Shown one piece after another: positions 1,330 to 64,000 of a stretch of 64,000 bases of DNA. The translations under genes were made by a program, and so were the position numbers. Below the pieces are notes generated by a model. That model was not told the DNA's origin. It saw nothing but the letters and a program-made list of their open reading frames with translations, and did no database searches. Origin of the DNA: Chthonomonadaceae bacterium (GTDB lineage Bacteria > Armatimonadota > Fimbriimonadia > Fimbriimonadales > Fimbriimonadaceae); the NCBI GenBank assembly GCA_015709495.1, contig CP054189.1, positions 2,790,001 through 2,854,000 of the forward strand. The letters run 5' to 3'. Numbering within the stretch: position 1 is the stretch's first letter; every line of letters begins with the position of its first letter.

Positions 1330-2555
1330 GCCTTTGGCAATCGTTCCTTATCGCCTTGGGCATGCTCCGGCTGCACAAGCTGCGGGCGTTCCTTACGATG
1401 CTGGGGGTGATCATCGGCGTGATGAGCGTCTCGATCATCGTCATGGTGTCGTATGGCTTCCAAAGCTACATGACCGGCGAATTCCAGCGTCTGGGGTCCG
1501 ATACGATCCTGATCTTCTATGACCCGGGGCGTCGGGAACGTGGGGCAACGGTGGGCGGGATCGAAGGGCTGACAATGGGGGATGTCGACTACCTAATGGA
1601 GCGCGTTCAGAGCCTCGACATCGCTTCGGCGATCTTGCAGCTTCCCCAGATGCCGGTCACCTACCTCGATCGGGAGATCACGAATCCCCGGCTCTTTGCG
1701 ACGGACGAGAACTTTCCTGAACTGAACCGACTGAGCGTCATCGAGGGTCGGCATCTGACGCGGCAAGACCTGGACGGAAAGGCCAACGTCGCAGTGGTGG
1801 GCGAGGAAGTTCGGGACAGGTTGTTTCCCGACAAGCGGGCGCTAGGAAAGTACATTTCCCTCAAAGGGATCACTCTTGAGATCGTTGGAGTGCTGGAGCG
1901 CCTCGACATCATGGGCGAGACGAACGCTCGCGATGTGTTGATGCCGATCTCGACGGCGCACAGCAAGTACATCGGCGGTGACCGGGTGATGTTCATCACT
2001 ACTCGGCCCCGCGAGGGAGTGTCGGTCAAGCAGGCCATGGACGAGGTTTGGCAAGCGTTGATGCTCCGGTCGGATAACCGCAGAATCTACCGCGTGGACT
2101 CGCGCGAGTCGATCCTCGCCGTCATGGGCACGATCATCGGAGTCGCCGGAGCGATCCTCGCCGCCATCGCGGCGCTGTCGCTGCTCGTGGGCGGCATCGG
2201 GATCATGAACATCATGCTGGTTTCGGTGACCGAACGAACCCGGGAGATCGGGCTTCGAAAGGCGGTGGGCGCAAAGACGGGCACGGTCCTCGTCCAGTTT
2301 CTGGTGGAGTCGGCGACGCTTAGCGTTGTGGGCGGGCTGATCGGAATGGGGATCGCTTACCTGTTTGGCCAGGGGCTCGCGCTCTTGACCGCCGCGACGA
2401 GTTGGCCCTCGAAGGGTGGATTGCCGGCCACTTTCCCCTACTACGCAGCGCTTGCAGCCGTTGGGTTCTCGGCTCTGATCGGGGTGGTTTTCGGGCTGTA
2501 CCCGGCAGTCCGCGCCGCGAAGTTGAGTCCGATCGAAGCTTTGCGGTCGGAATAA
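1326..2555 (+). CDS. MacB-like ABC transporter permease (FtsX family)
   Basis: 409 residues starting at GTG in a GTGA overlap with the adaptor gene, so the two are translationally coupled. An N-terminal membrane segment lies around residues 15-40 and is followed by a large extracytoplasmic MacB-PCD-type domain. Near residues 260-400 there are three hydrophobic helices with the typical FtsX motif region (LVGGIGIMNIMLVSVTERTREIGLRKAVGA). The product lacks the N-terminal ATPase domain found in E. coli MacB, so the nucleotide-binding subunit must be a separate gene. None is visible in the window, and it may lie upstream of position 1. Role: inner-membrane subunit of a tripartite exporter or mechanotransmission-type ABC system. 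Confidence 0.9.
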   Translation: MSLWQSFLIALGMLRLHKLRAFLTMLGVIIGVMSVSIIVMVSYGFQSYMTGEFQRLGSDTILIFYDPGRRERGATVGGIEGLTMGDVDYLMERVQSLDIASAILQLPQMPVTYLDREITNPRLFATDENFPELNRLSVIEGRHLTRQDLDGKANVAVVGEEVRDRLFPDKRALGKYISLKGITLEIVGVLERLDIMGETNARDVLMPISTAHSKYIGGDRVMFITTRPREGVSVKQAMDEVWQALMLRSDNRRIYRVDSRESILAVMGTIIGVAGAILAAIAALSLLVGGIGIMNIMLVSVTERTREIGLRKAVGAKTGTVLVQFLVESATLSVVGGLIGMGIAYLFGQGLALLTAATSWPSKGGLPATFPYYAALAAVGFSALIGVVFGLYPAVRAAKLSPIEALRSE

Positions 2556-2568
2556 GGGATTCGGGGGT

Positions 2569-2643
2569 TGGTAGCGGCGAGTGGACTTGAACCACCGACC
2601 CAACGGGTATGAACCGTTTGCTCTACCACTGAGCTACGCCGCC
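2569..2643 (-). tRNA. tRNA-Met (anticodon CAU)
   Basis: Read on the minus strand, the 75 bases fold as a complete cloverleaf. The acceptor GGCGGCG pairs with CGCCGCT through one G-U pair at 1:72. There is a D arm with GCTC/GAGC, an anticodon stem AACGG/CCGTT with loop TTCATAC giving CAU, and a T arm GTGGTTCAAGTCCAC. A73 and CCA are encoded. The anticodon stem lacks the three consecutive G-C pairs of initiator tRNAs, so it is an elongator Met tRNA, or a tRNA-Ile with lysidine-modified CAU, which sequence alone does not fully exclude. Confidence 0.93.
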
Positions 2644-2947
2644 ACCCAAGACCTATATTATGGCCCGTGACGCCCCGCCCTGCAACCCGGTGGGGACTTC
2701 GGGCGCCCCGGTATCTTGTCGTTGGGCAGCGGGATCGGGGGGTGGGTGGGGACAGCGGATTTCCGTGCCGTTCGTCCGGGAAGGTCGGGATTCACTCCGA
2801 ATTCTCCGCCCATGTGGAGGTTGTCGCTGCGGCCAGCACCGGGAACGAGACCCTCCACCCGTGGCGGGTGGAGGGATACAAACCTCTCGGCCCGTTGGGC
2901 CTGAGGTGCGCGTCTTCGACGGGGAACGTGGTCGAGTCTGGGGGGCG
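2644..2947. other. Intergenic region without a convincing gene
   Basis: About 300 bases between the tRNA and the first insertion sequence. Open frames here have atypical composition, resemble nothing recognisable and run into the IS, so they are not called. A CATAAT-like box on the minus strand (about 2658-2663) could be the tRNA promoter. The only clear structure is the perfect hairpin at 2851-2875. Confidence 0.5.
2851..2875. repeat. Perfect 10-bp inverted repeat (hairpin)
   Basis: CCCTCCACCC at 2851-2860 and GGGTGGAGGG at 2866-2875 are perfect reverse complements around a 5-base loop (GTGGC). No T-run follows on either strand, so it is not a standard intrinsic terminator. Its role is unknown. 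Confidence 0.6.
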
Positions 2948-3003
2948 GTTTGCCCTGCGGCGAAATTTGTGGACACCTACTTGTTCTGTCAGGAGAAAAT
3001 AGG

Positions 3004-3264
3004 ATGGTGTCTCGCCGTAGTTTCAGTCGTGAGTTCAAGTTAGGCATATGCCAGGAGATCGTTTCTGGCTTGCGGTCAAAGGCTCAGGTGTGCCGGGAGC
3101 ATGGTTTGTCTCCGGGGATGCTGGATCGTTGGGTGGACCAGTTCAAGGTCTTGGGTTCGGATGCGTTTCCGAATTCCGGGCGTTCGGGTTCGGGGATGGT
3201 GCTGGACCGTACGAAGGAGCTGGAAGCGCTCGTGGGTCGTCAGGCTTTAGAGATCGAGTTTTGA
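3004..3264 (+). CDS. IS3-family transposase OrfA (copy 1)
   Basis: 86 residues with an N-terminal helix-turn-helix (HTH_Tnp_1 type: FSREFKLGICQEIV, then KAQVCREHGLSPGMLDRWV) that recognises the IS ends. The C-terminal part carries the leucine-zipper-like LEALVGRQALEIEF. The stop TGA falls at a T-run (GAG TTT TGA); a -1 shift there continues as LKAAL, the usual start of the OrfB part in IS3 elements, which are made as OrfAB fusions by programmed frameshifting. The start ATG is chosen because it is conserved in all three copies, inside the left end. Confidence 0.85.
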   Translation: MVSRRSFSREFKLGICQEIVSGLRSKAQVCREHGLSPGMLDRWVDQFKVLGSDAFPNSGRSGSGMVLDRTKELEALVGRQALEIEF

Positions 3265-4143
3265 AGGCCGCACTAAAAAGGGAGGAACTCCGGGAAAAGG
3301 CAGCCATGATTCGCGCTCTTCGCCCGGAGTTTCCGTCCCTTTCGGTTCACCGCATGTCCCAATTGGTGGGCATATCTCGCTCTCTGGTGTACGCTCCGCA
3401 GAGGCAGAAATCGCGTCCCGAGTTGCTGTTGGCGATCGAGAGGCTGGTGGTCTTGTTCCTGGGTTACGGCTACCGCCGGGTTCGGCGCGCGCTTCAGCTC
3501 GAGGGCGTTGCGGTCAGCGAGTATGCAGTTCGCAAGCTCATGCGCGAGCACGGGCTGATGGCGCGAAGGCCGCGCAGCCGCGGGTGACCCGGCCGGGCGC
3601 TCGGGATCGCCGGGCAGGCAACCTGCTCAAGGGCCTCAGCGCCTCGGCCCCAACCAGATCTGGGTCGCCGACACCACGCGGGTGCGCACCGACTCGGGGC
3701 CGCTCTACCTGGCCGCCCTCATGGACCTGTATTCGCGCAAAGCGGTGGCCTGGCACCTCTCGCGCCGAAACGACGAAGCCCTGGTGCGCGATTGCCTCTT
3801 GAAGGCTCTGCAAACCCGCAAACCGAACCTCGGCTGGATTCACCACTCCGACCAAGGCTCGACCTACACCGCCTCCGGATACATGAGGCTCATCCGCGAC
3901 GCAGGCGGCAAAACCAGCTTCTCCGCTCCCGGAAAACCGCGCGACAATGCCCACATGGAAAGCTTCTTTCGGACCGTGAAGCTCGAAGAAGTCGACCGCA
4001 ACCGCTATGCGTCCTTCCTCGAAGCCCAAGCATCGCTGGAGCATTTCATCGATGCAATCTACAACCAACAGCGCATGCACTCAAGCCTTGAGTACATGAG
4101 CCCCGACCAATTCGAATCTCGCCCAACAAAGGAGGCGCGATGA
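3265..4143 (+). pseudogene. IS3-family transposase OrfB, frame-disrupted (copy 1)
   Basis: The region encodes a normal IS3 OrfB in pieces. An HTH_21-type part (MIRALRPEF to RPRSRG, 3306-3587) ends at a TGA. The catalytic rve part (IWVADTTR, HHSDQGSTY, DNAHMESFF: the D, D and E of the DDE triad) runs in another frame to 4143. Between them, a short third-frame stretch (about 3584-3650, GNLLKGLSASAP) is what the family expects. Two -1 steps, at about 3585 and 3650, would restore a continuous protein. The same two breaks occur in copies 2 and 3, so they predate transposition. They may be real inactivating changes, unusual recoding, or a shared error. Confidence 0.8.
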
Positions 4144-4174
4144 AGGTGTCCAACAATTTCGCCGCATTTCAGTT

Positions 4175-4450
4175 CGAGTCAGGCACGGGCTACCCGGGAT
4201 GGGCCCCTCATCCCCTCGGTCCCCTTCTCCCCCGGAGGGGCGAAGGGGAGGTCTTGGGCCTCGGCTTCAGAGAGAACGCGCCCAGTTTCGGGCTTGTTCT
4301 GCAAGGCGGAAGCGGGCTACCTGGGATGGCCCCTCATCCCCTCGGTCCCCTTCTCCCCCGGAGGGGCGAAGGGGAGGTCTTGTGCCTTGACTTTAGAGAG
4401 AACGCGCCCAGTTTCGGGTTTGTTCTGGGAGGCGGAAGCGGGCTACCCGG
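4175..4450. repeat. 126-bp tandem repeat array, units 1 and 2
   Basis: Two units with a period of 126 bp: CCCCTCATCCCCTCGG starts at 4204 and again at 4330. Each unit holds a strong hairpin, CCCCTTC-T-CCCC / GGGG-C-GAAGGGG (4221-4248 in unit 1), then a spacer with GAGAACGCGCCCAGTTTCGGG, and ends GCGGGCTACC(C/T)GGGATGG. Units differ by a few substitutions. IS copy 2 is inserted in the end of unit 2. Frames open through the repeats are not considered genes. Confidence 0.85.
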
Positions 4451-4478
4451 TGAAATGCGGCGAAATTGTTGGACACCT

Positions 4479-5358
4479 TCATCGCGCCTCCTTTGTTGGG
4501 CGAGATTCGAATTGGTCGGGGCTCATGTACTCAAGGCTTGAGTGCATGCGCTGTTGGTTGTAGATTGCATCGATGAAATGCTCCAGCGATGCTTGGGCTT
4601 CGAGGAAGGACCCATAGCGGTTGCGGTCGACTTCTTCGAGCTTCACGGTCCGAAAGAAGCTTTCCATGTGGGCATTGTCGCGCGGTTTTCCGGGAGCGGA
4701 GAAGCTGGTTTTGCCGCCTGCGTCGCGGATGAGCCTCATGTATCCGGAGGCGGTGTAGGTCGAGCCTTGGTCGGAGTGGTGAATCCAGCCGAGGTTTGGT
4801 TTGCGGGTTTGCAGAGCCTTCAAGAGGCAATCGCGCACCAGGGCTTCGTCGTTTCGGCGCGAGAGGTGCCAGGCCACCGCTTTGCGCGAATACAGGTCCA
4901 TGAGGGCGGCCAGGTAGAGCGGCCCCGAGTCGGTGCGCACCCGCGTGGTGTCGGCGACCCAGATCTGGTTGGGGCCGAGGCGCTGAGGCCCTTGAGCAGG
5001 TTGCCCGCCCGGCGATCCCGAGCGCCCGGCCGGGTCACCCGCGGCTGCGCGGCCTTCGCGCCATCAGCCCGTGCTCGCGCATGAGCTTGCGAACTGCATA
5101 TTCGCTGACCGCAACGCCCTCGAGCTGAAGCGCGCGCCGAACCCGGCGGTAGCCGTAACCCAGGAACAAGACCACCAGCCTCTCGATCGCCAACAGCAAC
5201 TCGGGACGCGATTTCTGCCTCTGCGGAGCGTACACCAGAGAGCGAGATATGCCCACCAATTGGGACATGCGGTGAACCGAAAGGGACGGAAACCCGGGCG
5301 AAGAGCGCGAATCATGGCTGCCTTTTCTCCCGGAGTTCCTCCCTTTTTAGTGCGGCCT
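4479..5358 (-). pseudogene. IS3-family transposase OrfB, frame-disrupted (copy 2)
   Basis: Reads leftward. It has the same HTH_21 and DDE segments as copy 1, with the shared breaks between them. It also carries the GA insertion that stops the OrfA-proximal frame at KREELREKRQP, and a private single-base deletion after MIRALRPG that scrambles the HTH_21 part until another in-frame methionine (MSQLVG, 5268). The catalytic segment with SDQGSTY and DNAHMESFF is intact from 4940 to 4479. This is the most damaged copy. Confidence 0.82.
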
Positions 5359-55983: not shown

Positions 55984-56586
55984 ATGAAGAGAGATATTTC
56001 GAGAGCATGTTTGACGCTAGGCCTTGCCAGCACTTGGGGAGTCGGCGCCGCGACGGAGTTCTATGGGACGGTCGAAAACGTCACGACACAAGGGCCCATG
56101 GCATTCCTCTACGCTTCAGGAGTGTCGAGCCCACACGCGGCCACCGGCATGATCAATCTGAACACGAGCACCTCGTTCTTCCCCGCCCCGGGGCCCACTC
56201 CGTTCTACGCGGAGTTCGTCGTCGCTGAAGGTGGTGGAGTCTGGGGCACCATCGGCTGCATCGACGTCGACCGAGTTTCGCTGGGGGTTAGCGCGGACGA
56301 CGTCAGTTCCATGCTGGGCCAGACTTGGGAGTCCCTGTTCCCCGACTTTTCTGAAGTATCGATTGCGACTGCCGTGATCAATGGCGACTTTACGACGCTC
56401 TCCCAGTTCGCCGACTACTACCCTTGGTACTTCGACACCCCTGAAGCCCTTGGGGCACAAGCGACCCTTGTGGACTTCTCGAACGGGACGTTTGGAGGCT
56501 ACGTTACGCTCGTTCCCGAACCGACGACGATGGTTGCGCTGGCCACAAGTTCGATAGCACTCTTGCTTCGGCGAAGGCGTTCGTAA
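55984..56586 (+). CDS. PEP-CTERM-sorted secreted protein
   Basis: 200 residues. A short, weak signal peptide (ISRACLTLGLASTWGVGAAT) is followed by a beta-rich body with no catalytic motif. The C-terminus is a full PEP-CTERM signal (VPEPTTMVALATSSIALLL, then RRRRS). AAAGGAG stands 5 bases before the ATG. Exported and sorted by the exosortase system; function unknown. An intrinsic terminator follows at 56611. Confidence 0.85.
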   Translation: MKRDISRACLTLGLASTWGVGAATEFYGTVENVTTQGPMAFLYASGVSSPHAATGMINLNTSTSFFPAPGPTPFYAEFVVAEGGGVWGTIGCIDVDRVSLGVSADDVSSMLGQTWESLFPDFSEVSIATAVINGDFTTLSQFADYYPWYFDTPEALGAQATLVDFSNGTFGGYVTLVPEPTTMVALATSSIALLLRRRRS

Positions 56587-56731: not shown

Positions 56732-57880
56732 TTGGCAGGAGTCAGATTCAACGGCATCGGCAAGGTTTTCGGGAAGGACGTTCACGCTGTTCGCGACCTG
56801 AATCTTGAAATCGCTGACCAAGAGTTCATGGTCCTCGTCGGCCCTTCGGGATGCGGAAAGACCACCGCGCTGCGGATGGTCGCCGGGCTCGAAGAAGCTA
56901 CCACCGGCGACATCTTCATCGGGGACCGGCGAGTCAACGACGTGCCCCCGAAAGACCGCGACATCGCGATGGTGTTCCAGAACTACGCGCTCTACCCTCA
57001 CATGAACGTGTACGACAACATCGCGTTCGGGCTGAGACTGCGCGAGCTCAAGGGCGTGTTCTGGCAACTCAGCCACCTCAGCCAAGCGCGCAAAGTCAAA
57101 GGCGACATCGACCGGAGGGTCCGCGAAACCGCCGCAATGCTCGGGATCGAGACCCTGCTTCACCGAAAGCCCAAGGAACTCTCCGGCGGCCAAAGGCAGA
57201 GAGTCGCGCTCGGTCGGGCCATCGTCCGCCAGCCCAAGGTGTTCCTCATGGACGAGCCCCTCTCCAACCTCGACGCCAAGCTCAGAATCCAGACACGCGC
57301 CGAGTTGATTCGGCTCCACCGATCGCTCCAGATCACCACGATCTACGTCACCCACGATCAGGTAGAGGCGATGACGATGGGGCAGCGAATCGCCGTGATG
57401 AAGGACGGCGTGCTGCAGCAATGCGACGTCCCAGAGGTCGTCTACAACCAGCCCGCGAACAAGTTCGTCGCCGGGTTCATCGGGTCCCCGCCCATGAACT
57501 TCGTCGAGGCGCGCATCCGCAAGGAAGGCGCCAAGGTGTGGATCGACGCCGCCGACTTCAAGCTTCCCCTGAACGGAACTGCGAGCGCCGGGGTGGCAGA
57601 CGGTCAAGTGGTTTGGCTCGGAATCCGGCCCGAAGCCATTTTCGATGCGAAGGTGCCCTCGTCGGTCAAGGCATCGCAGGAAAACACCCTTCAACTAAAG
57701 ATCGACGTCCTCGAACCCCTCGGGCACGAATATGTCGCCTACCTAACGACCGGCAAGCACAACCTTATCGCCACCCTCGACCCCACTTCGAAGGTGAAGG
57801 AGGCTGAGTCGGCGGAGTTCCTCATCAACCTCGACGAGATTCACGTGTTCGACGCCGAAACCGAACAAGCGATTCGGTGA
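56732..57880 (+). CDS. Sugar ABC transporter ATP-binding protein (MalK/UgpC/MsmX type)
   Basis: 382 residues. The ATPase domain has Walker A GPSGCGKTT, signature LSGGQRQR, Walker B VFLMDEPLSNLD and switch His in VTHDQ. The C-terminal MOI/TOBE beta domain carries GFIGSPPMNF and LGIRPEAIF, as in MalK, UgpC and the multi-purpose MsmX. It energises carbohydrate importers. No permease or binding protein is adjacent, so it may serve several importers as MsmX does. The TTG start has AGGAG 7 bases upstream. An extra stretch (about residues 105-130, FWQLSHLSQARKVKGD) is inserted after the Q-loop region. Confidence 0.9.
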   Translation: MAGVRFNGIGKVFGKDVHAVRDLNLEIADQEFMVLVGPSGCGKTTALRMVAGLEEATTGDIFIGDRRVNDVPPKDRDIAMVFQNYALYPHMNVYDNIAFGLRLRELKGVFWQLSHLSQARKVKGDIDRRVRETAAMLGIETLLHRKPKELSGGQRQRVALGRAIVRQPKVFLMDEPLSNLDAKLRIQTRAELIRLHRSLQITTIYVTHDQVEAMTMGQRIAVMKDGVLQQCDVPEVVYNQPANKFVAGFIGSPPMNFVEARIRKEGAKVWIDAADFKLPLNGTASAGVADGQVVWLGIRPEAIFDAKVPSSVKASQENTLQLKIDVLEPLGHEYVAYLTTGKHNLIATLDPTSKVKEAESAEFLINLDEIHVFDAETEQAIR

Positions 57881-57964: not shown

Positions 57965-58504
57965 TTACTTTCGGCGACGCCGCAAAAAGGCAACGCTACC
58001 CAAGGCCAGCGCTGCCATCGAAGTCGGTTCGGGAACCGCATTGACGTTCAGCTTCACGATGGTATCGTGCGTGAACGCAAGCTCCATCCAATCGATCTGG
58101 ATCTCCGAGCCGGTGAAGCTAACTCGACTCGAATCGAAGCCCCCCATGTTGGTCGAAGCGTCGATCGTCACCGACGTAAATGCCGGCCCCGAGACCATGC
58201 GCATGGCGATGCCGTTGTAGATGGTCGGCGCCAAAGACAAGCTCGACGAGGACCACGTCGAAGCGGCCATATAGTCGAACGTGATCGACGTGTCGTCCAC
58301 ATCGATGTCGAAATAGCCCGCGAAGTTGCCCTCAACTCCGGGCCCAACCACGAAGTCCGTCTGAGAGTTGTAAGCTCCCCCATAGGCGTAGTACTGCCAT
58401 CCCATCGTGGAACCGTCGAGGCCGGCGAGCGCCGAGCTGGGAAGAAAGAGCGCCGAAGCGCCAAGGGCGAGCGGAAGCGCCCGCAAAAGGGTCTTGTTTC
58501 GCAT
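57965..58504 (-). CDS. PEP-CTERM-sorted secreted protein
   Basis: 179 residues. Signal peptide (LLRALPLALGASALFLPSSALA), a Tyr/Ser/Asp-rich beta body (GWQYYAYGGAYNSQTDF, FDIDVDDTSITFDYM) and a PEP-CTERM tail (VPEPTSMAALALGSVAFL, then RRRRK). AAAGGAG lies about 13 bases before the ATG. No enzyme motif. It may be a surface or matrix protein. It converges on the MalK-type gene with a shared terminator. Confidence 0.87.
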   Translation of the reverse strand: MRNKTLLRALPLALGASALFLPSSALAGLDGSTMGWQYYAYGGAYNSQTDFVVGPGVEGNFAGYFDIDVDDTSITFDYMAASTWSSSSLSLAPTIYNGIAMRMVSGPAFTSVTIDASTNMGGFDSSRVSFTGSEIQIDWMELAFTHDTIVKLNVNAVPEPTSMAALALGSVAFLRRRRK

Positions 58505-58591
58505 ATTTAGCTTATTCTCCTTTATCGATCGATCCGAAAAACATCTCTGCCCAATCCCGGACCATTCCTATCGTACTGCAGGTTTCTGTAA

Positions 58592-60340
58592 ATGGCCACC
58601 GAAAGACAGAAAACCTGTGAGAACTGCTGGCGCTATGGCGACTACGTGCGGGCGGGCTCGCCCGAACAGGGCAAGCGCATCTTCCAGACCCTCAACCGGC
58701 AGGGCTGGAACGTCCCGCAGCAGCAATGGCAGGACACCCCCGAGGAGTTCCACTACGCCTACGACACCCAGGGCAGGCTCCTTTACGCCGCCTTCGCCAT
58801 GACCCCCCAACAGGGCCTTACCGGGTACACCGACGAAGACCCTGCCCTGCGCCGCGCACTCGCCGTCTACCAATACGACCCCGCTGGGCGCATCACCAGC
58901 CTCGCCCACTACTGGCAAAACTACAACTCCGGCTACTCCAGCACCCCCATCCTCAAGCAGGAATACGCCTACGACTCCGTCACAAGGCTCCGCACCGCCG
59001 CCAGCTTCTACAACAACCCCGATTCGGACGGCGATTTCGACCTCATCCGAACGGAAACCTACGACTATGACGCCCAGCTCGACTACCTCACCGAAGTCGA
59101 CTACAACGACGGCCTACCCAACGAAGCCCAGTCCTGGACTTACGACGCCGCCGGCAACCGGGCGACCGACTCGGTGCAGGGGTCGGGGTGGAGCTATGAC
59201 AATTTGAATAGGATGACCGCGAGTCCGGGGTACAGTTACCTGCACGACATTCTCGGAAACAGAACCTGGAGGAACTTTGGATCGTCTGGAGTTCAGAGGT
59301 ATCAATGGGACGCCTTGAACCGGGCGACTTCGATCGTGGGTGAGGCTTATGGGGCTCGGTATGTGTATCGCGCCGACGGGATGCGCGTGGAAAAGGTCGA
59401 AGGGCTGACGCTTAGCTGGGTGCCTCCTGGCGAAGAAGAGGTGAGCGGGCACTATGACGAAAACTTGGCCGAGAACTTGCCGACGAGCCGGTATTATTAC
59501 GACGGGCAGATGATGGTGGAAGACGATTACACCGTAGAGGGGCAGAACGAACCTGTGGTGACCGTGATGCGGTATGGGATCGGCGCGCGGGGGATCGACT
59601 TTCTCGCCAAATCGGTCGACGGCGGGGCGGAAACTGTGGGCTTTCCGTTGTATGATGGACATGGAAACATGATCGCGACGCTCGGCCGCTCGGAGAACTC
59701 GCCGTACTTTGGGGTTGCGGACCTGCGGTCGTATGACGTCTGGGGGTCGGTGCGCTCGGGCTCCTCGACCGGCGACCCGAAGCAGCGCTACTGCGCCAAC
59801 CTGGGTCACGTCCAGGACGACGAATCCGGCCTCATCTATATGCGGGCGAGATACTATGAGCCGTGGACGGGGAGGTTTGTCTCCCAAGATCCGGCGAAGG
59901 ATGGCAGCAATTGGTTTAGGTATTGTTCAAACGATCCGGTAAATCGAATTGACAAGGGCGGGACAGCGGATGAATGGTTAGCTTGGGCGGCCGTATTGAT
60001 GATGGTGGGTCACTTGGTCCAAAAGGCCCTCGATTTGTCCATAAAATACCTAACGCCTTGGCTCATTACGATGGGCATTGTCGCGTATGTAGTTGATGGC
60101 ATGAGCAAGTTGCCGCTCGAATACAAGCTTGCGGCTGGCTTTGGCAACATAGCGGCTGGGGCACTTCTTAAGGGGACGCTGGACGCCGTTGCAAGGAGTT
60201 TGCAGAAGTTCTTTACAGAAGTAATGATGATGCAGGCTCCTGGAGCGGCCTACCATATGATGTCAAGAGCGGCGGCTAGCCTAGCCGTATATTTCATAGC
60301 CTTGGAAGTCTATATGCTCTTGATAGGGATGGACGCATGA
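58592..60340 (+). CDS. RHS-repeat protein with RHS core and variable membrane C-terminus (module 1)
   Basis: 582 residues. There are YD-type repeats (FHYAYDTQGRLLYAAF, AVYQYDPAGRITSL, WTYDAAGNRATD, YQWDALNRATSI, YVYRADGMRVEKVEG) and then the RHS-associated core (YFGVADLRSYDVWGSVRSGS, IYMRARYYEPWTGRFVSQDP). After DPVNRIDKGG a different C-terminal domain of about 120 residues with several hydrophobic helices follows. There is no signal peptide, and the product is far shorter than usual RHS proteins, so the 5' part is probably lost. RHS proteins form a shell around a C-terminal toxin, and this layout suits a polymorphic toxin. The stop overlaps the next start (ATGA). Confidence 0.8.
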   Translation: MATERQKTCENCWRYGDYVRAGSPEQGKRIFQTLNRQGWNVPQQQWQDTPEEFHYAYDTQGRLLYAAFAMTPQQGLTGYTDEDPALRRALAVYQYDPAGRITSLAHYWQNYNSGYSSTPILKQEYAYDSVTRLRTAASFYNNPDSDGDFDLIRTETYDYDAQLDYLTEVDYNDGLPNEAQSWTYDAAGNRATDSVQGSGWSYDNLNRMTASPGYSYLHDILGNRTWRNFGSSGVQRYQWDALNRATSIVGEAYGARYVYRADGMRVEKVEGLTLSWVPPGEEEVSGHYDENLAENLPTSRYYYDGQMMVEDDYTVEGQNEPVVTVMRYGIGARGIDFLAKSVDGGAETVGFPLYDGHGNMIATLGRSENSPYFGVADLRSYDVWGSVRSGSSTGDPKQRYCANLGHVQDDESGLIYMRARYYEPWTGRFVSQDPAKDGSNWFRYCSNDPVNRIDKGGTADEWLAWAAVLMMVGHLVQKALDLSIKYLTPWLITMGIVAYVVDGMSKLPLEYKLAAGFGNIAAGALLKGTLDAVARSLQKFFTEVMMMQAPGAAYHMMSRAAASLAVYFIALEVYMLLIGMDA

Positions 60341-60576
60341 TTGTTTTTCTAATGTGGGTTTGCGTGATGATGCTGACATCTTTTGTTCTCGTCGTGATAC
60401 TCAGGATTGTTACCGGACATCAAATTGATTACGATGCCATTGAGATTGCACTTCTGATAGGCTTTCTGATGGGGTGGATTTCTTACGGTTTCGATCCCAA
60501 CTATCCCAAGGCCTTCTTTAAGCGCCTTAGCAATCTGATTGCACATAAAGATACACCCAGTGGTCGTGCGGAGTGA
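60337..60576 (+). CDS. Small membrane protein, candidate immunity protein 1
   Basis: 79 residues starting in an ATGA overlap with the RHS gene. Two membrane helices (MWVCVMMLTSFVLVVILRIV; IEIALLIGFLMGWISYGF), then a basic tail. The base composition is clearly more AT-rich than the RHS core. Its position directly after an RHS C-terminal domain is where immunity genes sit, and a membrane immunity protein would fit a membrane-acting toxin. No family is recognised. Confidence 0.6.
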   Translation: MIVFLMWVCVMMLTSFVLVVILRIVTGHQIDYDAIEIALLIGFLMGWISYGFDPNYPKAFFKRLSNLIAHKDTPSGRAE

Positions 60577-60653
60577 GTCAGTTGCTGCAAGCGATGGTGG
60601 ACTTGGGATTTCGAGCAGCTGGCGGCGTTTGGAAATAGGAGCCGGTCGTCACC

Positions 60654-61448
60654 GTGATGCGATATGGGGTCGGCGCCCGCGGAATCCACTTTATGACCAA
60701 AAGAGTGGAAGCAGGGGAGGAGATTCGGGGCTTTCCGTTGTATGATGGACATGGGAACATGATCGCGACGCTGGGCCGCTCGGAGAGTTCGCCGTACTTT
60801 GGGGTTGCGGACCTGCGGTCGTATGACGTCTGGGGCGCGGTGAGGTCTGGCTCGACCACCGGCGACCCAAAGCAGCGCTACTGCGCCAACCTGGGGCATG
60901 TGCAGGACGACGCATCTGGGCTCATCTACATGAGGGCACGCTATTATGAGCCGTGGAGTGGGAGGTTTATCTCTGAGGATCCCGCGAGGGATGGATTCAA
61001 TTCGTACGTTTACTGTCTTAATATCCCGACTGTGTTTGTAGACGAATCCGGAATGACCGTGCACGCAGCGCTTCAAGCTTTGCTCTTCTTGGCAGGCTTT
61101 ATCCTTGGACAAACTCTTGGCTACACCATAGCGGTATTGATCTTTATGAGCCTTGAGCCTCGTTTCATTGTTGATCATCTCGCCTCCAAGGCACTGTTTT
61201 CGACGGGACTTGCGATACTCTCTTTTCTTGGTGGTCTCGGATTCGAGGCGAGCAAGGATGACTTCGCCCTCTTCAATAAGCCATTAACTGATATGGCGAA
61301 GTCCATTCGCAGGTCACTGGCAAGAGTGGGACACAGTCGAGTAGCTGGTGCGGCCGGACTGGGGCTGTTGCTTGGAGCCATATTTGGCGTCTTGCAGGCA
61401 ACTTGGGAAGCCATATTGTGGAGAATCGATCACGATGCGGGTGGCTAA
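60654..61448 (+). CDS. Displaced RHS core fragment with membrane C-terminal domain (module 2)
   Basis: 264 residues from GTG 60654, with ATG 60657 as an alternative. The first 115 residues repeat the RHS core of module 1 almost word for word (YDGHGNMIATLGRSESSPYF, RARYYEPWSGRFISEDPARDG). A new C-terminal domain of about 145 residues follows, with three or four hydrophobic helices (LLFLAGFILGQTLGYTIAVLIFM, AILSFLGGLGF, AAGLGLLLGAIFGVL). The upstream YD repeats are missing. Such orphan tips are usually silent until recombined behind the full RHS gene; independent expression is uncertain. Confidence 0.75.
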   Translation: MMRYGVGARGIHFMTKRVEAGEEIRGFPLYDGHGNMIATLGRSESSPYFGVADLRSYDVWGAVRSGSTTGDPKQRYCANLGHVQDDASGLIYMRARYYEPWSGRFISEDPARDGFNSYVYCLNIPTVFVDESGMTVHAALQALLFLAGFILGQTLGYTIAVLIFMSLEPRFIVDHLASKALFSTGLAILSFLGGLGFEASKDDFALFNKPLTDMAKSIRRSLARVGHSRVAGAAGLGLLLGAIFGVLQATWEAILWRIDHDAGG

Positions 61449-61475
61449 GCGAAGTAGATACCCCTGGACAAACCA

Positions 61476-61760
61476 ATGCTTGAAGAGTTTGGCAATCACG
61501 TATATCTCATTCCTCTCCTGATGATCGGTCTTTCGTTGCACGATTTGTGGAAGCGACGAAAAACTGTTTCGAGCCTATGTACGTTGACGAGTATTGTGCA
61601 TGTGTTCGCCGGATTAGCGTTCTTCTTGGCCCTTGCTTATGACTCTTGCTTGGTCGTATACATGGTGGCTGCTACTTTGTGGATATTTGAGCACTTGAAG
61701 AATGCTGCACTTTCGGAGGTGCTGGTGAAGGGCCCTGGGGGCTCTCAAGAATTGCGGTAG
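61476..61760 (+). CDS. Small membrane protein, candidate immunity protein 2
   Basis: 94 residues from ATG 61476, 27 bases after module 2. About three hydrophobic helices (HVYLIPLLMIGLSLHDLW; VHVFAGLAFFLALAYDSCLVVYMVAATLWIF), with a basic segment KRRKTV between the first and second. AT-rich compared with the RHS core. Candidate immunity partner of module 2 by position only. It is unrelated in sequence to candidate 1. Confidence 0.55.
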   Translation: MLEEFGNHVYLIPLLMIGLSLHDLWKRRKTVSSLCTLTSIVHVFAGLAFFLALAYDSCLVVYMVAATLWIFEHLKNAALSEVLVKGPGGSQELR

Positions 61761-61847
61761 CGATGTTCCGAACTCTGTGTTGCACAATCCATGCATCGCG
61801 GCGGTAGCAGTATTCGAACGCGTACGGTGTGACCATGGGCAGATGGG

Positions 61848-62750
61848 ATGAGGACGGACAAGGTGGAAGGGTTCAACCTGAGTTGGGAGTGGACCCTCAA
61901 GACCCATACATCTGGCTACTATGACGAAATTCAAGGGCAGAACCTGCCGACGAGCCGGTATTATTACGACGGGCAGATGATGGTGGAAGACGACTACACC
62001 GTAGAGGGGCAGTACGAACCTGTGGTGACGGTGATGCGGTACGGCATCGGGGCGCGGGGGATCGACTTCATGGACAAGCGCGTCGACGATGGCCCTGAGA
62101 CGAAGGGCTACCCGATCTACGACGGCCACGGCAATATGATCGCGACGCTGGGCCGTTCGGAGAGTTCGCCGTACTTTGGGGTTGCCGACCTGCGGTCGTA
62201 TGATGTCTGGGGCTCGGTAAGGTCTGGCTCGACCACCGGCGACCCGAAGCAGCGCTACTGCGCCAACCTTGGGCATGTGCAGGACGACGAATCCGGCCTC
62301 ATCTATATGCGGGCGAGGTACTACGAGCCGTGGAGTGGAAGGTTCATCTCCGAGGATCCAGCGCACAGTGGCGGGAACTGGAACATATATTGCGATAGCG
62401 ATCCCGTCAATTACCGAGACTCTACGGGCAAGGCGAAAAAGCCGGACATAGAGGCTATCGAAGAATTGGTTCGTAGACTGTTTAGAGAGGGCCTAATTAC
62501 AAAGGAATACTTCGAGAGGTTCCTAAATCGACAATCAGACATAAGACGTGTTCTTCACAACCAATACTCAAAGATGGGTTTTACTCTCGAAGAAATCGCA
62601 GAGCTCATAATAGACGATTGTCAAATGAGAGGCCATAAGTTCCTATCTGGGATTGGCATCGGACTAACAACCCTTGACGCCGCGTTTAACCAAGATCCCA
62701 TCTTCGTAATGGAACTCCTGCGAGAAATCTTTACCAGCGGAAGGGAGTGA
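61848..62750 (+). CDS. Displaced RHS core fragment with soluble C-terminal domain (module 3)
   Basis: 300 residues from ATG 61848. It repeats more of the RHS core than module 2, from MRTDKVEGF, and decayed RHS sequence continues a little further upstream. After DPVNYRDSTGKAKKPD a distinct, soluble, helical domain of about 105 residues follows (IEAIEELVRRLFREGLITKEY, RVLHNQYSKMGFTLEEIAEL, IIDDCQMRGHKFLSG). It differs from the membrane-type C-termini of modules 1 and 2. No toxin family was recognised. Confidence 0.75.
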   Translation: MRTDKVEGFNLSWEWTLKTHTSGYYDEIQGQNLPTSRYYYDGQMMVEDDYTVEGQYEPVVTVMRYGIGARGIDFMDKRVDDGPETKGYPIYDGHGNMIATLGRSESSPYFGVADLRSYDVWGSVRSGSTTGDPKQRYCANLGHVQDDESGLIYMRARYYEPWSGRFISEDPAHSGGNWNIYCDSDPVNYRDSTGKAKKPDIEAIEELVRRLFREGLITKEYFERFLNRQSDIRRVLHNQYSKMGFTLEEIAELIIDDCQMRGHKFLSGIGIGLTTLDAAFNQDPIFVMELLREIFTSGRE

Positions 62751-62788
62751 ATAGTCTCTTTGACGCACCTTAAGAAAGGATGGCCTGA

Positions 62789-63313
62789 GTGAAAAGTCAA
62801 AGCGACATCTACCGGATTAGTGGTCGGGGCATTCCTTATCGATCGGATAATGAGACTATACTATTTGCCGAGCTATCGATTGCCTCGGACCAGTTGAAGA
62901 TCAGCCTATTGAGCAGTCCCTTTGGGCCGCTGCACTACTATTCTGAGATTTGGGAGCACACCATTCATGAACTGGAAGTACTATCGGCATGTTTGCGATG
63001 CGCGGCAGCGGGTGCGTTTCCGCACCCTATCGCAGTAGAGACTCCGGAAAGCAAGATTGGGGCGACTGGGAGACTGTTTCTTGCTGTCGACATGGAGATC
63101 GGATACTCTCTTGAGCGTCCAAACAGTGCAAGGGCCAGGTGTTTTTGCTCCTCGAACGTCTGGGGTCTGAAGGATCGAAGGTTGGGGGTAGCCCTTGGAA
63201 TTGCAGTATGTGGCGCCTTTGGCGAGGTTGTGATGGAGCCTCCCAGTGCTCTTGAGTTGTCCGATTGGCTGGATCATCACACCAGAACTTGGTCACTAAA
63301 ACTTAGCCCGTGA
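62789..63313 (+). CDS. Soluble protein, candidate immunity protein 3
   Basis: 174 residues from GTG 62789, with AAGGA 8 bases before it. No membrane helix. It has a mixed alpha/beta sequence (AELSIASDQLKISLLSSPFG, HTIHELEVLSACLRCAAAG, FLAVDMEIGYSLERPNSARAR). It sits after the soluble C-terminal domain of module 3, so a soluble immunity protein is a reasonable guess. Its TGA overlaps the GTG of module 4 (GTGA). No family recognised. Confidence 0.55.
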   Translation: MKSQSDIYRISGRGIPYRSDNETILFAELSIASDQLKISLLSSPFGPLHYYSEIWEHTIHELEVLSACLRCAAAGAFPHPIAVETPESKIGATGRLFLAVDMEIGYSLERPNSARARCFCSSNVWGLKDRRLGVALGIAVCGAFGEVVMEPPSALELSDWLDHHTRTWSLKLSP

Positions 63314-64000
63314 CCGTTCGAACTGAGTGCCAAACGGTAATTCCCGACGGCCCGGGGATCGACTTTCTCGCAGAATCGATCGATGGCGGGGCGGAAACTG
63401 TGGGCTTTCCGTTGTATGATGGACACGGGAACATGATCGCGACGCTGGGAAGAGCTGAGTCGAGCCCGTACTTTGGGGTTGCGGACCTGCGGACGTACGA
63501 CGTCTGGGGGTCGGTGCGCTCTGGCTCGACCACCGGCGACCCCCGCCAGCGCTACTGCGCCAACCTGGGGCATGTCCAAGACGACGAATCCGGCCTGATC
63601 TACATGCGGGCTCGCTATTATGAGCCGTGGACGGGGAGGTTTGTGAGTGAGGATCCAGCAATGTCCGAGTCCAATTGGTACTCATACTGCTTAGGAGATC
63701 CTGTGAATGCTGTCGACAAATCCGGTCAAAGCCGTTATTACGATTGGGACGTTCAGTTCAGTCTTGGTAGTATGTACTTCGGATTTGCCCTAATCCTAGT
63801 TATGAGCCGCTGGGGAGGTACGGTAGTTTCTAAAGCCGAGAAGTATGCGGTGTCTGCATTGCTGGTTGCCTCGGCGTTCCACCTTTCAAATGCCGTCGGC
63901 GGTACGTCCCTTTCAGACGATGCGTTTCTCAACTTCGTGAATCATTCCATCGCCTACGTTGGCATGATTGCCATGATCGCCGAGGGCCTTGAAAAAAGTC
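63310..64000 (+). CDS. Displaced RHS core fragment with membrane C-terminal domain (module 4, 3' partial)
   Basis: An open frame from GTG 63310 to the window end, 230 codons with no stop. After 15 unrelated residues the RHS core starts at GIDFLAESIDGGAETVGFPL and runs to RFVSEDPAMSESNWYSYCLG, then DPVNAVDKSGQSR. A new C-terminal part begins with hydrophobic segments (MYFGFALILVMSRW; ALLVASAFHLSNAVGG; SIAYVGMIAMIAEGL). This is a fourth tip of the array, and the array probably continues beyond the window. Confidence 0.75.
   Translation, partial: MTVRTECQTVIPDGPGIDFLAESIDGGAETVGFPLYDGHGNMIATLGRAESSPYFGVADLRTYDVWGSVRSGSTTGDPRQRYCANLGHVQDDESGLIYMRARYYEPWTGRFVSEDPAMSESNWYSYCLGDPVNAVDKSGQSRYYDWDVQFSLGSMYFGFALILVMSRWGGTVVSKAEKYAVSALLVASAFHLSNAVGGTSLSDDAFLNFVNHSIAYVGMIAMIAEGLEKS

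Follow-up and report, generated by a model that had tools for sequence, protein, structure and literature searches.

A probable array of orphan RHS toxin/immunity cassettes with mostly hydrophobic tips in a Fimbriimonadaceae genome

The right-hand end of a 64,000-nucleotide stretch of DNA from Chthonomonadaceae bacterium (the window; G000:C1:2790001-2854000, contig CP054189.1 of assembly GCA_015709495.1) carries an array of genes built on the core of rearrangement hotspot (RHS) proteins. The host genome is complete, a single contig of 2.90 Mb, and the array can be followed into the sequence adjoining the window, for which the window numbering is carried on beyond 64000. An earlier, sequence-only reading of the window had expected the array to run past its end, and extending the contig completed module 4 and revealed a module 5 and a decayed core. 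The complete genome thus holds five modules, each with a core, a C-terminal tip and a downstream partner gene, and a decayed sixth core, all on the plus strand and separated by short gaps or overlaps. The features are listed below (ORF, open reading frame; aa, amino acids; GRAVY, grand average of hydropathy; TM, transmembrane).

58592..60340, plus strand: module 1, a 5'-truncated RHS core (TIGR03696) with the hydrophobic tip 1, an ORF of 582 aa
59963-60337: tip 1, 125 aa, GRAVY 0.79
60337..60576, plus strand: module 1 partner, a candidate immunity gene, 79 aa with 2 predicted TM segments; it overlaps the preceding ORF by ATGA
60654..61448, plus strand: module 2, a displaced RHS core with the hydrophobic tip 2 (61053-61445, 131 aa)
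61476..61760, plus strand: module 2 partner, a candidate immunity gene, 94 aa, hydrophobic, after a 28 bp gap
61848..62750, plus strand: module 3, a displaced RHS core with the soluble tip 3 (62430-62747, 106 aa)
62789..63313, plus strand: module 3 partner, a candidate immunity gene, 174 aa, mostly soluble, after a 39 bp gap
63310-64092 (the window stops at 64000), plus strand: module 4, a displaced RHS core with the hydrophobic tip 4 (63727-64089)
64085-64456, plus strand: module 4 partner, 123 aa, 3-4 TM segments
64528-65583, plus strand: module 5, core and tip 5; its partner ends at 65986
About 66006-66305, plus strand: decayed sixth core, with a stop

The RHS core model TIGR03696 matches all five modules with 63-74 bits (cut-off 32.5), and a YDGHGN motif stands in an open frame in each of the window's four cores, at 59651, 60741, 62118 and 63415. 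At the DNA level the core copies are 82-93% identical across 240-550 bp. The likeness stops at a DP...D..G block, beyond which the C-termini of the window's four modules are not clearly related in sequence. The sequence-only reading was therefore correct in its count of four cores with four different C-termini, as it was in placing a small gene directly after each of the first three, at the overlap and gaps listed above; the partner of module 3 also overlaps the core ORF of module 4 by GTGA at 63310. Its description of the block as DPVN does not hold for copy 2, which reads NIPTVFVDESG and lacks the literal DPVN. The aspartates of this predicted autoproteolysis block (D...D-x-x-G) are kept in all five copies, copy 2 included, and in the cores of relatives of the same RHS type, here called type A. 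The ORFs of tip and partner are intact in 5/5 modules, and their G+C content is 44-52%, compared with 57-61% in the cores and 60% in the flanks. By hydropathy, the only measure used, 4/5 tips of the array are hydrophobic (3/4 in the window, in agreement with what had been noticed before), and the partners of these tips are hydrophobic as well, with 1-4 segments.

The array had been read as one RHS gene followed by three fragments. However, module 1 is also a displaced fragment, and all copies in the array are 5'-truncated: the 582-aa ORF begins at residue 851 of its relatives, and its match to the 1400-aa RHS protein of genome G032, at 55% identity, covers residues 851-1274 of that protein. 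Its start codon is not conserved between two strains of the same species. Full-length type A relatives are 1374-1515 aa long and have DUF6531, RHS repeats and a hydrophobic N-terminus that was judged by eye to be Sec-like. Their N-terminal 850 residues, which are present in G032, G023, G028, G004 and G026, have no match anywhere in the genome that carries the array, in the same-species genome G094, in the same-genus genome G001 or in G033 and G007. The array is therefore not located behind a full-length type A gene, whereas relatives such as G023 and G052 do have that layout. Since every copy is a fragment and there is no full-length recipient, a simple model in which silent tips are loaded onto a main gene cannot operate in the cell as sequenced. 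The named relatives found through core matches are mostly Armatimonadetes and Fimbriimonadaceae genomes from metagenomes. In one relative, G013, a complete-type RHS gene next to an undamaged cassette array is split into separate frames (L049, G013:C13:63889-66120), which is possibly an intermediate stage of launcher loss. In another, G028, RHS cores (L055, L056, L104) are interrupted in frame by short repeat-like insertions with the sequence PDSLRS(F/L)PFGGISA, which look like a small dispersed repeat inserting into genes.

The earlier suggestion that a store of tips and partners recombines through the shared core is borne out by two observations. Firstly, core 5 is a mosaic of cores 1 and 3. 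It is identical to core 1 over 167 bp (64783-64949) and to core 3 over 104 bp (64930-65033), and of the sites that distinguish these two cores, the first 36 in a row agree with core 1 and the next 10 with core 3. The chance of such a perfect two-block order among 46 sites is about 2e-10, assuming independent sites. Secondly, the complete genome G094 has an array at the same locus, bounded by the following junctions.

58496..58592: left junction, where homology to G094 (left flank 93.5% identical) stops at 58496
About 66180, past the window end: right junction, where homology to G094 resumes (96% identical from 66180)

Between them, G094 carries two modules instead of five, with tips and partners unrelated to those described here, and a remnant core at the right end that shares 95.7% identity with cores 1 and 5. 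As the flanks and the core persist while all modules differ, the modules turn over completely within the species. Module exchange by recombination inside the shared core is thus well supported. A mis-assembly or a chance repeat was considered as the source of the array and was rejected, as the genome is a complete single contig and a second genome of the species has an array at the same locus. Elsewhere in the lineage, Armatimonadetes bacterium Uphvl-Ar1 carries a two-module stretch of 2,902 bp that is 100% identical at two genome sites about 128 kb apart (L109, L110, positions 1721-4622); as it begins inside the core, it points to a recent copy event.

Hydrophobic tips are a lineage-wide property of type A and not a local oddity. 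The type A sample comprises 67 distinct tips, drawn from 23 Fimbriimonadales genomes. It is set against 49 tips that were taken from 14 genomes for another RHS type of this lineage (type B), to which three loci of the array's own genome belong. In this comparison, TM segments were called by hydropathy only, with no trained predictor, the statistics ignore kinship between genomes, the partner was picked by rule (the longest ORF with a start close to the tip end), and the sampling was led by core matches. A GRAVY above 0.3 was found for 54/67 type A tips versus 2/49 type B tips, and at least two TM segments for 50/67 versus 5/49 (p=1.7e-12), a contrast that persists under stricter thresholds. 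Hydrophobic tips also end 7/8 of the long (complete or near-complete) type A copies. The partners follow the tips: at least two TM segments are found in 41/51 type A partners where the tip has at least two, versus 4/19 for other tips (p=8e-6). The type B loci in the genome itself (G000:C1 758-763 kb, 1564-1569 kb and 2269-2277 kb; L019, L020 and L018) have soluble tips, one of which ends in an HNH-like motif, and one locus holds a copy of 1302 aa. Type A-like cores in Clostridia and Spirochaetes (L128-L142) carry mostly soluble tips, and the membrane preference therefore seems to be confined to the Armatimonadota lineage. In one subgroup, tips with glycine-zipper-like stretches are followed by partners made of 1-2 TM segments and a soluble tail (L046:13915-14868, L103:1787, L053:8727, L055:8874), which suggests a distinct toxin/immunity class.

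The individual tips are rare. No relatives of tips 1 and 3 were found in 113 genomes of the order, and none of tip 5 within the set of tips compared in this analysis. For tip 2, a relative with 38-39% identity is present in G102, and the same relative occurs in Uphvl-Ar1. Tip 4 is one of a wider group of tips ending in AYS(L/V)...GL(L/I)I, which sit on displaced cores of G081, G025, G013 and G108 and also on the full-length 1397-aa RHS protein of G004. The ratio of nonsynonymous to synonymous substitution rates (dN/dS) of the tips is 0.16-0.27 in the four computable pairs, three of which are near-saturated in dS; judged from these sequence comparisons, tip pairs in other genomes appear to be under purifying selection. 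The partners diverge faster, with 25-29% identity where the tips have 34-57%. AlphaFold models of tip 2 (from three sequences) and of a related tip group (from ten) are all-helical, with five and four helices and a predicted local distance difference test score (pLDDT) of 66 and 70, respectively. Fold searches with both models returned only generic helix bundles or sub-threshold matches.

Taken together, these results indicate that the locus is probably a series of five or more orphan RHS toxin/immunity cassettes, reshuffled through the core, in which four of the five tips would be membrane toxins. In each cassette, a conserved core stub that includes the autoproteolysis block would be joined to a C-terminal tip and followed by the cognate immunity gene. 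Tips 1, 2, 4 and 5 may be all-helical domains of about 120-130 residues that insert into membranes as pore-forming toxins or ionophores, and the small multi-span membrane partners would neutralise them as immunity proteins. Tip 3 would be a soluble toxin paired with its largely soluble partner. The cassettes would be gained, lost and reshuffled via homologous recombination within the core DNA. That the tips are toxic, that they act as pores or ionophores, that the partners confer immunity and that the toxins are delivered is what we infer for such cassettes. As to delivery, the sheath gene VipB/TssC of the type VI secretion system (T6SS) was absent from the array's own genome and 20 relatives, with a positive E. 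coli control, and T6SS delivery was rejected on the basis of these 21 genomes. The likely launcher is therefore the Sec-like route of the relatives, in which a complete RHS protein of about 1,400-1,500 aa with a Sec-like N-terminus and the same tip type would serve this purpose. Since this launcher is missing here, another strain may supply one by recombination, or the array may be an immunity bank, or it may be fading.

Several points weigh against the cassette reading. Searches with hidden Markov models, the check put forward together with the earlier reading, recognised the cores (TIGR03696) but assigned no family to the tips or partners, for which Pfam, NCBIfam and PADLOC gave no usable match among known toxin/immunity families; a PDB sequence search with the module 3 partner also gave no match. 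Where tips are homologous, no homology was detected between their partners, so that the pairing is argued from position and topology, and pairwise shuffles for the relatives of tip 2 and tip 4 failed to demonstrate that tip and partner sequences are conserved together. The membrane segments of both were read from hydropathy, the pLDDT of 66-70 of the two tip models is low, and the fold searches were unspecific. Finally, no full-length type A gene is left in the genome, which leaves delivery from the array's own cell unexplained. A more far-reaching version is bolder and less likely than not. In it, type A would be dedicated across the order to hyperdiverse membrane toxins whose membrane immunity proteins co-vary with them, and some species that have lost every launcher would go on keeping and rewriting their arrays, which would be functional as stand-alone units or as a renewable immunity bank.

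The alternative that survives best has a substantial chance of being right, albeit a smaller one than the cassette reading, with which it is compatible; the two differ in what selection keeps. It proposes that the weapon has been lost and that the cassettes are kept mainly for the partners, which would protect against launching relatives, while the tip stubs are retained as recombination homology. The absence of a type A N-terminal half from the own, same-species and same-genus genomes, even though the locus turns over, is consistent with this, and the broken head gene beside an intact array in G013 is what would be expected if the launcher decays first. A precedent exists in E. coli EC93, which has orphan immunity without toxin synthesis (PMC3150448). 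However, all five tips are open where decay would be expected, although fast turnover may mean that they are recent arrivals.

It is unlikely that the array is a decaying RHS relic that passively captures and loses modules and has no present function. The stop in the sixth core, the unconserved start of the first ORF and the missing launcher would fit such a relic, as would the lack of a promoter excess over shuffled sequence; the promoter and terminator scan as a whole gave counts near the shuffled expectation and was uninformative. On the other hand, the tip and partner ORFs are undamaged in every module, the tip pairs of other genomes appear to be selected, and the core copies have dN/dS values of 0.03-0.24, part of which may predate their displacement. 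That the hydrophobic C-termini are not toxins but anchor a surface protein in the membrane or help its export, with the small membrane proteins as accessory subunits, is improbable: most type A tips are indeed hydrophobic, near-complete or complete copies included, but anchors do not need hypervariability, wholesale replacement within a species or a faster-changing partner, type A also has soluble tips with soluble partners, and the tips come after the autoproteolytic block that frees toxins in other RHS proteins.

The genes flanking the array are ordinary. Those on the right are kept in G094, and the two on the left were named by reading the sequence and not by a family search.

56732-57880: ABC (ATP-binding cassette) transporter ATPase
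57965-58504, minus strand: PEP-CTERM protein

An inverted repeat (56512-56544 and 58004-58036, 88% complementary) lies inside the C-terminal coding ends of two opposite-strand PEP-CTERM proteins that flank the ABC transporter gene. There are no tRNA genes in the 18 kb around the array.

Orphan RHS arrays as such have been known since 2011. What is new is the dedication of one Fimbriimonadales RHS type to a large pool of membrane tips, together with the turnover of an array in a launcher-free species. No treatment of RHS systems in Fimbriimonadaceae was found in the literature, although this covered open-licence papers only and is weak evidence of absence. Few membrane-acting RHS tips, such as Tse5, have been characterised, and if the cassette reading is true, many new toxins of the pore-forming or ionophore kind, each with an immunity protein, could be drawn from type A. 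As the same genomes contain a second RHS type with soluble tips, it becomes testable whether the shell dictates the choice of tip. It is puzzling that the array should turn over in the absence of a launcher. The two complete genomes of one species, with different arrays and no launcher gene, make it testable what keeps orphan modules alive and whether the array is a reservoir, an immunity bank or a relic.

Several known systems invite comparison, and the predicted membrane toxins with their membrane partners may be the RHS equivalent of two of them, Tse5 and the CDI ionophores. Tse5 of Pseudomonas aeruginosa is a pore-forming Rhs toxin and a single T6SS effector (PMC10684867). It shares with the array an RHS shell that is homologous over the core, the Asp pair in the cleavage block and a membrane-acting tip, which is predicted in the present case. 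However, the sequence match stops before the tip, and the array tips belong to a large, mutually divergent pool in genomes with no T6SS sheath gene. The ionophores of contact-dependent growth inhibition (CDI), whose immunity proteins are highly polymorphic (PMC11630599), resemble the predicted products of the array in being a big polymorphic set of short helical membrane toxins in which immunity outpaces toxin divergence. They rely on CdiA/CdiB, with an entry domain that precedes a five-helix bundle, whereas the carrier in the array is RHS and there is no sign of a distinct entry domain; homology of the array tips to these toxins could not be shown. W-TIP is a predicted two-TM pore-forming polymorphic toxin domain, reported from proteobacteria only and marked by RxxR and W...TIP signatures (PMC3482391). 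It is likewise a prediction of a small hydrophobic C-terminal toxin, and differs in that the array tips have no Pfam match.

The closest likeness is to the orphan rhs-CT/rhsI and cdiA-CT/cdiI modules (PMC3150448; PMC3967940). Such modules encode functional toxin/immunity pairs (PMC3150448), and rearrangement onto the main rhs gene via a 522-bp stretch of 95% identity has been described (PMC3967940). The known modules sit downstream of a full-length main gene, whereas the genome of the array and its same-species and same-genus relatives have no such gene of type A. In all other respects compared the two are alike: core fragments of variable length lose homology sharply at the core end, each is followed by a new tip and a small downstream gene, there is no export signal, and the modules are replaced within a conserved genomic setting.

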